The notes below the pieces were generated by a model. The model was not told the origin of the DNA and searched no databases. It saw only the letters and a program-made list of their open reading frames with translations. 64,000 nt of DNA from Tetrahymena thermophila SB210. Lineage: Eukaryota; Ciliophora; Oligohymenophorea; Hymenostomatida; Tetrahymenidae. Numbering within the stretch: the first letter of the stretch is position 1; every line of letters starts with the position of its first letter. Both the position numbers and the translations under genes were made by a program. This document shows positions 32,801 to 41,450 of the stretch, one piece after another. Location of the stretch: contig NW_002476251.1 of the NCBI RefSeq assembly GCF_000189635.1, positions 62,001 through 126,000 of the forward strand, read 5' to 3'.

Positions 32801-34393
32801 TCAATTTTTTTCTTTAATTCCTTGAAAAGAAACTAAGGAAAAATGCAGCAAATCATATTTTGGTAGGGTTTTCAGATAATCTCCATCAATCTCAAGATGC
32901 AAAATATTAAATAAATAAGGTTACAATTTGATTATAAATAAAGGTATAAAGAAGTTTTTTAAGTTGTCTCTAAAGAATAAATCAAGATATAAGTTTCCAA
33001 TTTAATAGTATCTAAAGCAATAATAAGGAATTCCAAAAAGAAGTAATGTTAATATTATTCTAAAAACCTAAATACATTTATTTATTTTTAATTTTTTGTT
33101 AATTGCATAAACTGAATTTATTTCATAAATTTAAAATAAGCTTACTTTTTTAAAAAATCTGAGAGGTTTGTATGATTAAGTCCAGAGTTCAGGCTTGTAT
33201 CTTCCTTAAGTCAATAGTGCATTAATAATCAGACTGTAAGAGAATGTTATACAAGATAAATCCAATAGGCATCCATTAGTTAAAAATCTATATCCTTCAA
33301 AAGATTTCGTGCAATTAGGATTCTTTAATAAGTTTTATTTGTACTTATTTCTGTCATAATCAGATATTGAGGCATTTATAAAATAGTATGATAAAATTCC
33401 TATTAAAAGTAAAGTTATGTAGATTAAGCTTATTTTCAAAAAGTAAATTATCAATTCTTATTTTTTAAAAAAAATTTTATATGTGACATCATTCAGAATA
33501 TTATCTAAAATTATTTCAAGTTTCCATCTGTAGAGTATAAGAAATATTGTAGCGTAAACCCAAGCAATAATAACTTAACCAAAGGAATGAGCACCTAGCA
33601 TTATTCTGCTAAATCCTATTAAAAAGACAACTATCAAATAAATAGGCAGATATATAAAACTATTTATAAATCTTTCTTTTCCTATATCATTATTCTGTTA
33701 CTCATTGCCTACAATTAGAGTGCAATTTCCATCGTTAATAGTTTATCTAAAATTTTATAAATGAATTTAAAAAAAAATATTTTTTACTATAAAATTAATT
33801 TAAATTTACTTAATGTTTTTTTCTTCATCAATAATTTGTTATGAATTTTAAGGATTATTACTATTTAGTTTTTATTGATAGAGTTTAGGTAAATTCATGA
33901 TTTCTTATGATTTTTCTGATTGTTTAGAAACAATAAAAAATTTTCTGTTAATAAGTGAATCAAAAACTAGATAGTAAAAAACTGTAGATCCTAATGTGTG
34001 TCCTGAAGGCTTAGCAAATTCTTGTTCGCAGCCAATACTTATCAAATCAGTATAAATAAAGTAAGGACGAGGTTCATGATACCATATTTTTAATAAGCTC
34101 ATAATAAAACTAGACATGTATAAAGTTATTAAAAATTTTAAAGATTAAATTTTATTAGGGAAAAATATATATCCAAGTAGAGGAATTAACAGCGTGATTT
34201 CTCCTTCACCAATAAAAGACATTATATTAAAAAATACATATTTTGGAAGCTAAGGATTAGATTATCCTTGTTGAAGAGAATAAGTAAAAGTGTAATTCCA
34301 TCTAAATAGATCATCTTTGAGTATTGCATCAATAATAATCCAAATTAAGCAGAGAGAAAATAAAATAATCCCAAAAAGCTTTTCTTTATTCAT
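32801..34393 (-). CDS. PAP2-superfamily membrane phosphatase, paralogue 3, 483 aa
   Basis: Exons 34393-33810, 33746-33146, 33067-32801 (484 codons), introns 63 and 78 nt. Signatures: KIWYHEPRPYFIYT, GCEQEFAKPSGHTLGS and SRIMLGAHSFGQVIIAW. The Ser-Arg pair and both His are intact; H+4 is Gln as in the other two copies. Eight to nine TM helices, with a Cys-bearing hydrophilic segment NPNCTKSFEGYRFLTNGCLL aligned with the others. A slightly longer polar loop after motif 2 (exon 1 end) and a longer C-terminus distinguish it. Closest in organisation to paralogue 2 (same YNSF/YTFT N-terminal region and LPKY element), indicating that copies 2 and 3 diverged last; substrate unknown. Confidence 0.85.
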
Positions 34394-35290
34394 CAATAGT
34401 TTATTTTAAATATTTATATTATTTAAAATCTCCAAAAAGAAATAAAAACTTCATAATTTATAAAAATAAATTTATTTTGCATAATATAGAATATAACAAA
34501 AAAAAACCACGTGTAGGCACTATTATAAAGTCTATACATAAATAATTGCTAATTAGCAAATTACTGATTAAGTTGACTGTTTAATTTTGATAATTTAAAA
34601 TTTAAAAGTCAAATTTAGGATTCCCATTTATGAAACACGTTTTTAAGAAGTAAAGAATGTTTAATAAAACTTAATTTTTTAACCTAATTATTTAATTTCA
34701 TAGTAAAAACATCTAAGTAAGTAATTTAAAGTAATAAATATTAATTGAAATTAAATATTTTTAATTTGATGTAAATTTAACTTTATAAAAACAGTTTTAA
34801 TCTAAAACTAAATTAAAAATACAAATAAATTAGAAAAATTTTTCCAGAAAAAATTGACTTTTGTTGATTTAAATTATTTTTTGTTAAAAATTTAATAATA
34901 TTTTGAAAAATTCACTCAATTTTTTAGTTTAATTAATTTTTTGCTGAAACATAGTTTTTAATAAAAAGTAGATTTTTGCTACACTATTAATTAAGCAACA
35001 CAATTTAATAAATTATCGATACATATTTATTTATTACTAATTTTTGTAAAAATTCAATGAACTAGCATGAAGTTAAATAAAATTGAGAAAAAATATTACT
35101 AGAATTTAGTTTTTATTTATCTGAAAATTTAACTTATTTCAGAGCACAAAAAGATTGTTTGTTTAATATTTTATATTTTAAATTATTTTGAATATTGGTA
35201 TAATTTACAGAATATAAAATACTAAGATTATACATTTTTAATAGTATATTCTAATAAACTTGAAATGGGTAAGGTAAATTGAGTGAGCCA
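34394..35290. other. AT-rich intergenic region
   Basis: 0.9 kb upstream of PAP2 paralogue 3 and downstream of the nine-exon gene; no features recognised. Confidence 0.6.
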
Positions 35291-37603: not shown

Positions 37604-39844
37604 TTTATGTTCTATTTTATAATCTTTTCCTGATAAAAATATTAATAAAAATAGTATCTCAAAAAATTTGGATTATTTCCAAAAGATCTTTCTAAATAAT
37701 ACTAATAATCAAATATTCATTCATATATTAACAAATATCTTTTTATTAGTATCATCTACTTTTTTTATTTGAAATTAAAATAAAAACTAAAATATTTTTC
37801 TTTTTTAAAATTGATGAAATAATTTTTAATTTATATTAAAACAGAATATTATTATATAAACAAATCCAAGGAGAATATGCAAATACTCTTAAAGAAGAAG
37901 AATATTAATAGAGGTGATTCTTAAAATTATTTGAAATATAAAGTATTGTTTATATTAATAAAATTAATAATTAGAAACAAAAATAATTTTTGATCTTTCT
38001 TTATTGATTAAAAAATATATTTTGTGCTAATTTATTATGAATAAGCATTCTATTAAATTATGAATATAACTAATTATAGTTTCTTCTTCTATTAATTTTT
38101 AAAAATTTAATTCAAATTAAAATAAAAAACTTGAAATGAGGTTAAAATTTAATTTAATTCAACAAATATTTTTTTAATTAGTAAATAAATTTATTTGGAA
38201 AATATTTTCATTTTAGAATATATGATATTTAAATGTCAACTAATCTTTATGTATTTATTTATAAATTAAAATGAATACACCATTTTGCTTGTTACTATTT
38301 CAATCTAATTTATTTATTTTAACAACTTAAATTTTAGATACTATTTAGATTTTTTTTCATAATTTTTATACATTTTAAAATCTTATTTTTGTATATCTGG
38401 TATCTTAATATAATTTTTACTATGATAAAAAAAGTAAGAACTCATTCATATCAGATATTTCTAAAGATATTTATCCAATATTTATGTTATAAAATTAAAA
38501 AGCACTATCTATACTTTAAACACAATTAAATAATTACAACTCATTTGTGCTTATAATACTTATTTAATTAATAAGATTTTAAAATCAGAAACTACTTAAA
38601 ATATAGATAAAAATTTTGGCTTTATAAAAAAATAATTCTTCTCTAAAACTAAAAAAATGTATTGAAGAATGCAATTTTTGTGATATGTATATTTCATATT
38701 TAATTGTTTTATTTATTAGTTTTTATTTTAAAATTAAAAATATAAAGAAGAATATGATCAATTAATTTCATTTTTTAAAATTAACAGTAGAAACAAAGGA
38801 AAATATGTAAAAATGTATAACCATAAATATTGAGTTTGATAAATAAAATATTTTTATTATTATTAGCTAAATGATGAAGAGCACAGCTAATTTAATGAAA
38901 CTATTCTAATTTATCATCAATCTTTTATTTTAAAAATAATTATTAATATGTTGAAATATCAAATTAAACTAATAAATAATTGATATTTGCTAATCATCTA
39001 TCTCACACATTTTTATATAAATGAATCAGACAGGTTTTGGGTTTTAAAGTTCTCAACAACTTAATTTATGAATGGTGCATTTTTGTCATCATCGGATTTG
39101 ATTTAGATGTTAGATTTATTTTAGACACATATATTTTTAAAGATAATTAATGAAGTTAGCTAATTACCTATGATTTATGGCATTTGAGGAAGATTGAGCA
39201 TTTTTTTTCTTCTAAATTTTACATTAGTTTCCCATGAATTTAATCTCTAATTATTAATAAAAATACAAATTAATTAATCAATTTTTTTCTTTGATTATTT
39301 ATTTTGAAATAGGTGTTAGAGGGGTGAAGTTATTTTGAACAATTTAATGTTCAAATCTTGGATATCCTCTTTTTCTATTGCAAACTCAAAAAGGGATAAT
39401 GATATAGTATAAAATTATCCAGAGTGTAATTTGCTTTAGTGTATTATTTTGTTTAAAAAGTTTATGTTTGTTTGTTTACCTTAACTTTAAAAATCCAGAA
39501 TCGTCTTATAGGCAACCAAAAAGTATTCAATAGGGTCTCGTCAACCAAAGAAGATAATATCTTTTTTTAGAAAATAAAATTAATAAATTCAGTATGACAA
39601 AGAAATCATTATAAATGATTGATTGATAAATAGAAAAATGTAAGCGCAGGCCAGTGATTTAAACATCATGAATGTCGTTTAATTCATAAACTGCTATTTA
39701 CTTCAATTTCTGCAGAAATCTTCACGAATATTTGCTGAAATCCAATTATCCATGCTTTTGGCTGCATTTTAAATCAATTAAAAAAAATAAAATAAAGGTT
39801 CTTACATGCAAAGATTTTAACTTTTTTAGAAATGAAAAAAAATT
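37604..39844. other. Gene-poor region, AT-rich becoming less so after 39.3 kb
   Basis: 2.2 kb without a recognisable gene. Up to 39.0 kb it is A/T runs. From 39.3 kb the sequence is visibly less AT-rich. A short imperfect hairpin TTGAAC..GTTCAA sits at 39332-39351, followed by CCTCTTTTT, and an ATTTCTGCAGAAAT palindrome lies near 39708. A forward TGA-free frame near 39010-39185 (…FWVLKFSTTQFMNGAFLSS) is of chance length. Confidence 0.5.
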
Positions 39845-39850
39845 TCCAAA

Positions 39851-39921
39851 CCCCAGCAAAAGATGCTCTCAGGAGGGGTGGGAGGGGGTGGGTATTAGAA
39901 TGAAAGCACATTTTGCTGGGG
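39851..39921 (+). other. G-quadruplex motif inside an inverted repeat
   Basis: CCCCAGCAAAA (39851-39861) and TTTTGCTGGGG (39911-39921) are perfect reverse complements enclosing about 50 nt. Inside the loop, 39875-39892 reads GGGGTGGGAGGGGGTGGG: four G-runs of three or more with one-base loops, the strongest class of intramolecular G-quadruplex motif. It stands out in a genome with very little G/C. Function unknown; G-rich A/G tracts guide DNA elimination boundaries in Tetrahymena, which is one possible parallel. Confidence 0.8.
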
Positions 39922-40052
39922 ATAAGGAATAGATTTTTTCATTTCTTCATTATAGTTTTATTAAATGCATATCTTAGGTTCAAAGTATTGAGAAGACTCT
40001 GCTGAAGGAGTGTGTTCTTAGAAGCCATCAAAGACAAATCAAGAATGAAGTG

Positions 40053-40348
40053 AAATCTAAGGCGTTGGAATAAAGTGAGCCTCCTTGTGTTCTTAGAATT
40101 GTATAACTTTGCTATTGATAAGAAGACCTCATCTCTCTTAAGTCTCAGGTGTTTACTTTTTGGGTAAAAACCCTCTTCGACAGAAAGATGAAATCCCCCG
40201 TTAGTTAAAACTGATACTTTCTATCAGAGTCAGGAGGACTTTCCCCAAGGTTTTGAGTTATCGACAAAAGTCGAAGCTCTCCTCTGCAAAGAGGAGAACT
40301 TTTTTTGTTTGCCTCGAAAACAATTCTTTATTCCAACGCCTTAGATTT
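40053..40348 (+). mobile_element. 296-bp GC-rich element with perfect 23-bp terminal inverted repeats (MITE or structured RNA gene)
   Basis: Left end 40053-40075 (AAATCTAAGGCGTTGGAATA+AAG) and right end 40326-40348 are perfect reverse complements. The interior is far richer in G/C than the surroundings and contains successive perfect hairpins: GGGT-AAAA-ACCC (40162-40173), CTGATA-CTTTC-TATCAG (40211-40227), TCGAC-AAAA-GTCGA (40261-40274) and CTCCTCT-GCAA-AGAGGAG (40279-40296). The last is closed by a GNRA-type GCAA tetraloop on the plus strand, with a T7 run soon after. No protein frame is apparent. A terminal stem closing several hairpins is what a structured RNA would look like; perfect TIRs are equally what a miniature transposable element would show. 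No obvious target-site duplication is visible (flanks GAAGTG and AATTAA). Confidence 0.6.
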
Positions 40349-41349
40349 AATTAATTATATAAAACACAAATAAAATTCGCAGTTTTTAATGTTAAAATAT
40401 AGTACTTTTGACTTTTATTTAAATTTATCTGAAAATTTAAAAAACCCACCACAATTTAGTTTGTTTTTGATTTATTTAATTATTTTAAATATTAAAAATA
40501 AAATATCACTCTTTCAATAAGTTAAGAGAGATAATAAAATTTAACCAACTAAACCAAATTCTACTTGAAGTGAAGAAAAGATAATTATTTTAAACTAATT
40601 TTAGAAATACATTTTTTTCTTCTGGAAAATAACTATTAATTTATCTTTCTTTTAATTTTCACCTAGTTAGTTTCGCTCCTTTTAATTGCTATTGATTCAA
40701 TCTACTAAATTTTTTGTTTTATAATGTTTTAAATTAAAAGATAATTGATTGATTTATTTTTTTAAAATAAACTTAAAAAATAAATTCTATTTTTTGAGCT
40801 GAAAAGTATTTAATTAAAAAAATTATTATTTTTGTTTCATTTATTTTATTTGGTTAAATAATGAGAATAAATTCAATCTTAAAATTAAAATTTTATTTTT
40901 TTTATTAAAAAAATAAGTATTATTAACTTATAAATAAACAATTCTTAATGGATAAAATACATAAACTTATAAATTAATTAGGAACAATACTCTTTTATTT
41001 TTAAATTTTATTGATTATTTAAGCATTTTTAATAATCAAATAGATATTCCACTGAAAGCTGATTTTGATCTTTGATAAAATTCTCCTACTGAATATTATT
41101 AAAATCTTGACATTCTTAGTCCAGCATATGATTTTAGTTACCATATTTCATTTATTTTATTTGGTTAAATAAAGAGAATAAATTCAATCTTAAAATTGAA
41201 ATTTAATTTTTTTTTTTTATTAAAAAAATAAGTATTATTAACTTATAAATAAACAATTCTTAATGGATAAAATACATAAACTTATAAATTAATTAGGAAC
41301 AATACTCTATTATTTTTAAATTTTATTGATTATTTAAGCATTTTATTAA
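40349..41349. other. Intergenic region containing a duplicated gene 3' end
   Basis: 1.0 kb downstream of the secreted-protein gene, AT-rich, occupied from 40835 by copy 1 of the tandem duplication listed next; otherwise no features. Confidence 0.6.
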
Positions 41350-41450
41350 TCAAATAGATATTCCACTGAAAGCTGATTTTGAGCTTTGATAAAATTCTCC
41401 TACTGAATATGATTAAAATCTTGACATTCTTAGTCCAGCTGATGTCATGT
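40835..41450. repeat. Tandem duplication, two copies, 311-bp period, including a gene 3' end
   Basis: TTTCATTTATTTTATTTGGTTAAATAA at 40835 recurs at 41146, and about 300 bp following are nearly identical. Copy 2 (41146-41450) contains the last codons of the secreted-protein gene. Copy 1 carries the same C-terminal coding segment in frame (SVGEFYQRSKSAFSGISI, one residue changed) with the TGA intact at about 41040, but has no upstream exon, so it is a truncated duplicate. Confidence 0.85.

Follow-up and report, generated by a model that had tools for sequence, protein, structure and literature searches.

RNase MRP RNA assembles with Pop and Rpp proteins into an enzyme that most eukaryotes need for making ribosomes, and RNase P RNA is its sister RNA, the two having a catalytic core in common. 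According to PMC7277114, the yeast MRP RNA gene NME1 is transcribed by RNA polymerase II (Pol II) and the human gene RMRP by RNA polymerase III (Pol III), and PMC4287351 describes the movement of RNase P RNA, in insects and crustaceans, into Pol II-transcribed genes. With regard to structure, three papers (PMC1796607, PMC13184271, and PMC3737539) present the GARAR pentaloop as an MRP-specific element of helix P8, the first of them adding that some groups are without it; PMC13184271 names a 3-bp P5 adjoining CR-I and a six-nucleotide CR-IV as MRP traits.

The block at positions 40053-40348 of the window, i.e., the 64,000-nucleotide stretch of Tetrahymena thermophila DNA analyzed here, is almost certainly an RNase MRP RNA gene of the Tetrahymena type, located on the minus strand. 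It is like human RMRP and yeast NME1, as represented by the Rfam family RF00030, in its match to the full length of the model, in CR-I and CR-V, in a P4 with a bulged U, in a P8 with the GARAR loop, and in P1 and P2. Unlike the model, in which P1 has 10 pairs, the ciliate RNA has a perfect P1 of 23 bp; its P3 region and the last hairpin of the model also differ from the consensus, and it lacks the flanking signals that mark the genes compared with it in the same genome. The gene belongs to a curated family and has the anatomy expected of that family. The RNA itself is ordinary; the result fixes the strand and identity of a conspicuous block and argues against a mobile element, and the mode of MRP transcription is the part worth testing. 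Among the listed titles and abstract openings on MRP RNA in Tetrahymena or ciliates, none describes this gene, which is not proof of its being unpublished; Piccinelli 2005 and Andersen 2012 (a Tetrahymena RNA survey) would be the likeliest sites of an earlier description.

Identity of the GC-rich block

The block differs from its surroundings in composition (38% GC vs 21% in the 2 kb on each side) and is bounded by two arms, 40053-40075 and 40326-40348, which are complementary at 23 of 23 positions, with the flanking base on either side unpaired. This confirms the original prediction of a GC-rich, 296-bp block with perfect 23-bp terminal inverted repeats. Exact inverted 16-mers no more than 1 kb apart number 19 in the window, 8 overlapping ones representing this arm pair and the others falling in five AT-rich places. 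When both strands of 40053-40348 were folded, as the prediction had proposed, the minus strand reached -110.7 kcal/mol (z score of -10.0) and the plus strand reached -97.5 kcal/mol (z score of -6.9), each value being equaled by 0 of 200 shuffles, and the predicted chain of internal hairpins was present in the helix list of the fold. The prediction had favored the plus strand on account of a GCAA loop, seen there in CCUCU-GCAA-AGAGG; however, the gene lies on the minus strand, where the same hairpin is capped by UUGC. A plus-strand RNA was rejected, given its weaker fold and the absence, in the window scan, of any Rfam family at its cut-off on the plus strand.

Comparison of the whole window with 4227 Rfam families, by a scan that retains the best match of a clan, gave two matches at the curated cut-off, RF00030 (RNase MRP RNA) and RF02327. 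The RF00030 match covers 40064-40338 on the minus strand, scores 85.5 bits against a cut-off of 50 (E value of 2.9e-22), and extends over model positions 1-266 of 266. The Rfam scan suggested by the original prediction thus bore out its view of a folded RNA of about 300 nt, with "RNase P/MRP" among the candidates, and of the terminal repeats as a closing stem, which is P1; its statement that the block fits no known RNA motif and may be undescribed did not survive the same scan. A genome search with RF00030 returned one place over the cut-off and two below it, at 21.4 and 17 bits (25 of 169 candidates scored). In all genome searches the best candidates alone were scored, so repeat counts are lower bounds, and "one copy" means one found. 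Among the prokaryote control genomes, RF00030 gave matches below the cut-off in 10 of 14 and over the cut-off in 0 of 14.

The RF00030 model contains 67 base pairs, of which 47 form standard pairs in the ciliate RNA, 4 are unpaired, and 16 fall on gaps; 20 of the 47 keep the consensus bases, 3 differ from it in one base, and 24 differ in both, all of these counts leaning towards the model's structure because the alignment is fitted to it. Strongly conserved consensus letters are identical at 67 of 96 positions and differ or are gapped at the remaining 29. Divergence is seen in the inner P3 helix, where gaps take up 7 of 7 model pairs, and in the hairpin that comes last in the model, where they take up 6 of 6. 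Altogether, the bulged U of P4, the GARAR loop of P8, and the full-length RF00030 match support the identity of the block as MRP RNA. By family knowledge, the ciliate RNA would bind Pop and Rpp proteins and would cut pre-rRNA in ITS1. A Pop1 profile had one partial match in the genome (30.4 bits vs a cut-off of 22.2; profile positions 128-168 of 208). NEPRO, an MRP-specific protein in humans, had no match in the genome, but the search was equally silent in the controls and is hence uninformative.

Since the core made of CR-I and CR-V, together with P4, is common to both sister RNAs, the block might be taken for the RNase P RNA gene instead of that of MRP, but this is very improbable. RF00009 finds one gene elsewhere (C426, 80.7 bits) and none here at an E value of ≤1 (15 of 810 candidates scored), with control matches below its cut-off in 1 of 14 prokaryote genomes and over it in 0 of 14; RF00030, conversely, scores its next places at just the two low values given above, the best-of-clan scan leaves MRP, and P8 bears the GARAR pentaloop. 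We give just as little credence to an inactive MRP pseudogene whose working counterpart is missing from the assembly: the usual flanking signals are absent, as such a relic would lead one to expect, yet the block is the sole place over the RF00030 cut-off among the 25 scored candidates, and its P1, P2, P4, and P8 are intact. The original prediction had also entertained a MITE, and perfect terminal inverted repeats of 23 bp would suit that or another mobile element. The copy search that it proposed for the same genome found one copy of 40053-40348 in the 101-Mb assembly (1 candidate, 1 scored); target duplication is absent, as the left flank GAATGAAGTG differs from the right flank AATTAATTAT, and the interior matches an RNA family from end to end. 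Copy number and the Rfam match together rule out a MITE, and the probability of a mobile element with terminal inverted repeats is negligible.

Several other candidates were discarded. For SRP RNA, RF00017 matches three places elsewhere at an E value of ≤0.001, none being listed at the block (prokaryote controls: below the cut-off in 5 of 14, over it in 0 of 14). DLEU2_4, on the plus strand, scored 24.7 bits vs a cut-off of 40 and overlaps part of the spacer hairpin described below; RmaA, also on the plus strand, scored 20.9 bits vs 57, and BTnc231, on the minus strand, scored 17.2 bits vs 80.4.

Anatomy of the minus-strand RNA

The helix and conserved-region names used here (P1-P8, CR-I, and CR-V) come from the family literature, and we assume that they apply to this RNA. 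Its features are as follows:

40053-40348, minus strand: assigned RNase MRP RNA gene, with presumed ends, including the 23-bp terminal stem (RF00030 match within it)
40326-40348, minus strand: P1 5' arm, AAAUCUAAGGCGUUGGAAUAAAG (complementarity and fold)
40053-40075, minus strand: P1 3' arm (complementarity and fold)
40321-40326, minus strand: P2 5' strand, GAAUUG, pairing with CAAUUC at 40096-40101
40096-40101, minus strand: P2 3' strand, CAAUUC (Rfam alignment)
40275-40300, minus strand: 11-bp hairpin with a UUGC loop in the P3 region, its plus-strand copy showing GCAA (fold)
40233-40246, minus strand: CR-I, GGGGAAAGUCCUCC, aligned with the consensus GGGGAAAGUCCCCG
40232-40240, minus strand: P4 5' strand, AG(U)CCUCCU, with the bulged U at 40238 (unconstrained fold)
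40078-40085, minus strand: P4 3' strand, AGGAGGCU (unconstrained fold)
40211-40227, minus strand: P8 hairpin, CUGAUA-GAAAG-UAUCAG, with the GARAR pentaloop at 40217-40221 (Rfam alignment and fold)
40121-40199, minus strand: long distal stem of 18 + 3 + 4 + 5 bp (fold)
40078-40108, minus strand: conserved 3' core, comprising AGUUAU at 40103-40108 and CR-V, AACACAAGGAGGCU, at 40078-40091 (mostly capital-letter consensus)

All 10 model pairs of P1 are formed, and the outer part of the 23-bp stem is an extension beyond the model. In P2, 4 of the 6 pairs are changed on both sides relative to the Rfam consensus; the free fold, which is nested and lacks P2, places the first base of P2 in a P1 pair. 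P1 and P2 together form 16 of 16 model pairs, and in 11 of these neither base is that of the consensus, as counted in the structure-fitted alignment. P4 crosses P2, so that the Rfam structure line holds P2 without P4, and P4 is a separate check. The pairing of CR-I with CR-V as P4, with one bulged U, arises from a free fold that is blind to the family, and by our own comparison with the Rfam consensus letters it includes one C-G to U-A change. P4 is the centre of the catalytic core in this RNA family. The P3 domain departs from the model, with 6 of 7 pairs of the outer helix formed, 7 of 7 of the inner helix on gaps, and a different 11-bp hairpin occupying the region. The GAAAG loop on P8 is, judged by its sequence, the MRP-specific substrate-side element.

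Flanking signals compared with other small RNA genes

The reference set consisted of 21 RNA genes of the same genome, representing 6 kinds of RNA, with polymerase classes assigned from general knowledge: 9 genes of the Pol III type (RNase P, 1; U6, 4; SRP, 3; telomerase RNA, 1) and 12 of the Pol II type (U2, 8 of 9 places; U3, 4 of 4). The ciliate telomerase RNA was detected in the genome with RF00025 at 161.9 bits; this RNA, the Tetrahymena snoRNA described below, the high AT content, and the 101-Mb assembly all fit a Tetrahymena genome. In addition, the RNase P RNA gene at C426, which is separate from that of MRP, carries ACCCATAA at -70 and T6 just past its end. As a side observation, a second U2-like group (L018-L021, G000:C329) scores 102-104 bits vs 146-150, starts with TGTCCTTCTCGG, and bears ACCCATAA instead of AACCATAA upstream.

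In 21 of 21 reference genes, an element of the form A(C/A)CCAT(A/C)A begins 59-70 bp before the Rfam start; in the Pol III-type genes it reads ACCCAT(A/C)A, occurring as ACCCATAA in 8 of 9 and as ACCCATCA in 1 of 9. Scored with a matrix built from the other families, the element gave values ranging from 11.7 to 20.9 across the 21 genes and from 13.0 to 20.9 for the nine of the Pol III type, the test being milder for U2, whose two groups were counted as separate families. The element is presumably the USE of PMC6315972, equated by description; that paper reports the USE for snRNA and snoRNA genes of Tetrahymena and, in the case of two snoRNAs, puts it 98 and 118 bp upstream of the mature RNA.

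No such element was found upstream of MRP, where scores peaked at -1.7 over 160 bp and at 1.9 over 400 bp; for random 160-mers drawn from the window, the median was 0.7 and the 95% point was 7.1. The H/ACA snoRNA gene downstream, TtnuHACA20, is likewise without the element, its best upstream score being 3.2. At the 3' side, a run of T5 or longer lies no more than 8 bp from the Rfam end in 9 of 9 Pol III-type genes, none of which has an earlier T4 run, and internal T4 or T5 runs are contained in 12 of 12 U2 and U3 genes. Within MRP, T4 runs occur at nt 29, 80, and 139 and a T5 run at nt 179; downstream, no T4 occurs before +191, and a T-run of at least 5 begins at 210 bp. Three simple patterns for an internal A/B-box promoter detected none on the minus strand at 39500-41000. 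Altogether, MRP does not resemble the Pol III-type genes examined, and it is without the element that the U2 and U3 genes carry.

Transcription mode and neighboring elements

Two features on the same strand lie downstream of MRP:

39636-39758, minus strand: H/ACA snoRNA TtnuHACA20 (RF02327, 153.5 bits, cut-off of 100)
39828-39946, minus strand: 119-nt spacer hairpin of 13 + 4 + 11 + 9 bp with a C-rich, 29-nt loop (fold)

TtnuHACA20 is separated from MRP by a 294-bp spacer that is partly GC-rich (22-45% in 100-bp steps). Folded as 39826-39948, the hairpin in this spacer has a z score of -10.5 on the minus strand and -5.6 on the plus strand. It has no Rfam family at cut-off, and the genome search for the spacer found one copy; the hairpin may serve in processing or represent a third RNA.

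With neither the element upstream nor a T-run at the 3' end, and with internal T-runs present, we doubt that MRP is an ordinary Pol III gene and lean, by a modest degree, towards its not being one. Its source might be a longer precursor, probably made by Pol II, in which TtnuHACA20 and the spacer hairpin are included as well. We assign this model slightly less than an even chance, considering that a missing motif is no proof of a different polymerase, that the references represent 6 RNA kinds, and that a weak codon test gave neither a host exon nor a clear coding signal. Most simply, a single longer, probably Pol II, transcript would yield both MRP RNA and TtnuHACA20, and the stems, i.e., P1 and the spacer hairpin, would help the cutting of the precursor. 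About as likely as this shared precursor is an ordinary Pol III MRP gene with a diverged upstream element, in which the internal T-runs are read through and transcription perhaps ends at the T-run 210 bp downstream. Such a gene would agree with human RMRP being transcribed by Pol III (PMC7277114) and with the Pol III signals reported for 26 of 26 insect MRP genes surveyed (PMC4287351), and, besides the distant T-run, there is a TATA-like stretch upstream of MRP at about 40355-40364. It is harder to reconcile with the presence of both element and terminator in 9 of 9 Pol III-type genes here, RNase P included, with an MRP element score that falls below the background median, and with the one T5 and three T4 runs inside the gene.

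The fullest version of the shared-precursor model, which we put forward tentatively and consider somewhat doubtful, is that MRP RNA no longer belongs to the Pol III class, to which RNase P RNA, U6, SRP, and telomerase RNA still belong, and has become the first part of a Pol II precursor with an H/ACA snoRNA, in which P1 and the hairpin would act as processing signals or the hairpin would be a third, undescribed RNA. If true, a catalytic RNA would have changed its transcription mode, as a mirror image of arthropod RNase P RNA leaving Pol III. Having left Pol III, the ciliate gene would be like yeast NME1, an MRP RNA outside Pol III according to PMC7277114, although the precursor shared with a snoRNA is a proposal for ciliate MRP alone and not a feature of NME1. 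It is also like the arthropod RNase P RNA described in PMC4287351, being a gene of the P/MRP family without Pol III promoter and terminator; unlike in those arthropods, where RNase P RNA switched and MRP stayed with Pol III, the ciliate signals point the opposite way. A further difference from arthropod RNase P RNA is that no host coding gene is evident at ciliate MRP by a weak codon test: sampled every 100 bp over 38.6-43.8 kb, no 40-codon stretch passed the mark of 8, with a score that discriminates poorly (-0.08 to 0.17 per codon in held-out frames). A single 20-codon stretch on the plus strand at 39900, in the G-rich loop, had a codon score of 10.5.

In the same part of the spacer, 39875-39892 on the plus strand (GGGGTGGGAGGGGGTGGG) is the one G-quadruplex-type run that the chosen pattern detected in the window; a related G-run pattern occurs at 58 places in the genome, and the others among the matches listed are nearly pure G. 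By eye, the minus strand of 39560-39807 shows AG sites beyond TtnuHACA20 and, some 47 bp ahead of it, a GTAAG, and these sites would allow the placement of TtnuHACA20 in a short intron. Upstream of MRP there is an AT-rich tandem duplication of about 300 bp (40835-41130 and 41146-41444), pieces of which are 89-99% alike. A Pfam search of 8 neighboring open frames found nothing in 7 of 8; the remaining one, at 32804-34450 on the minus strand, is a ciliate-code open frame with a PAP2 phosphatase domain.
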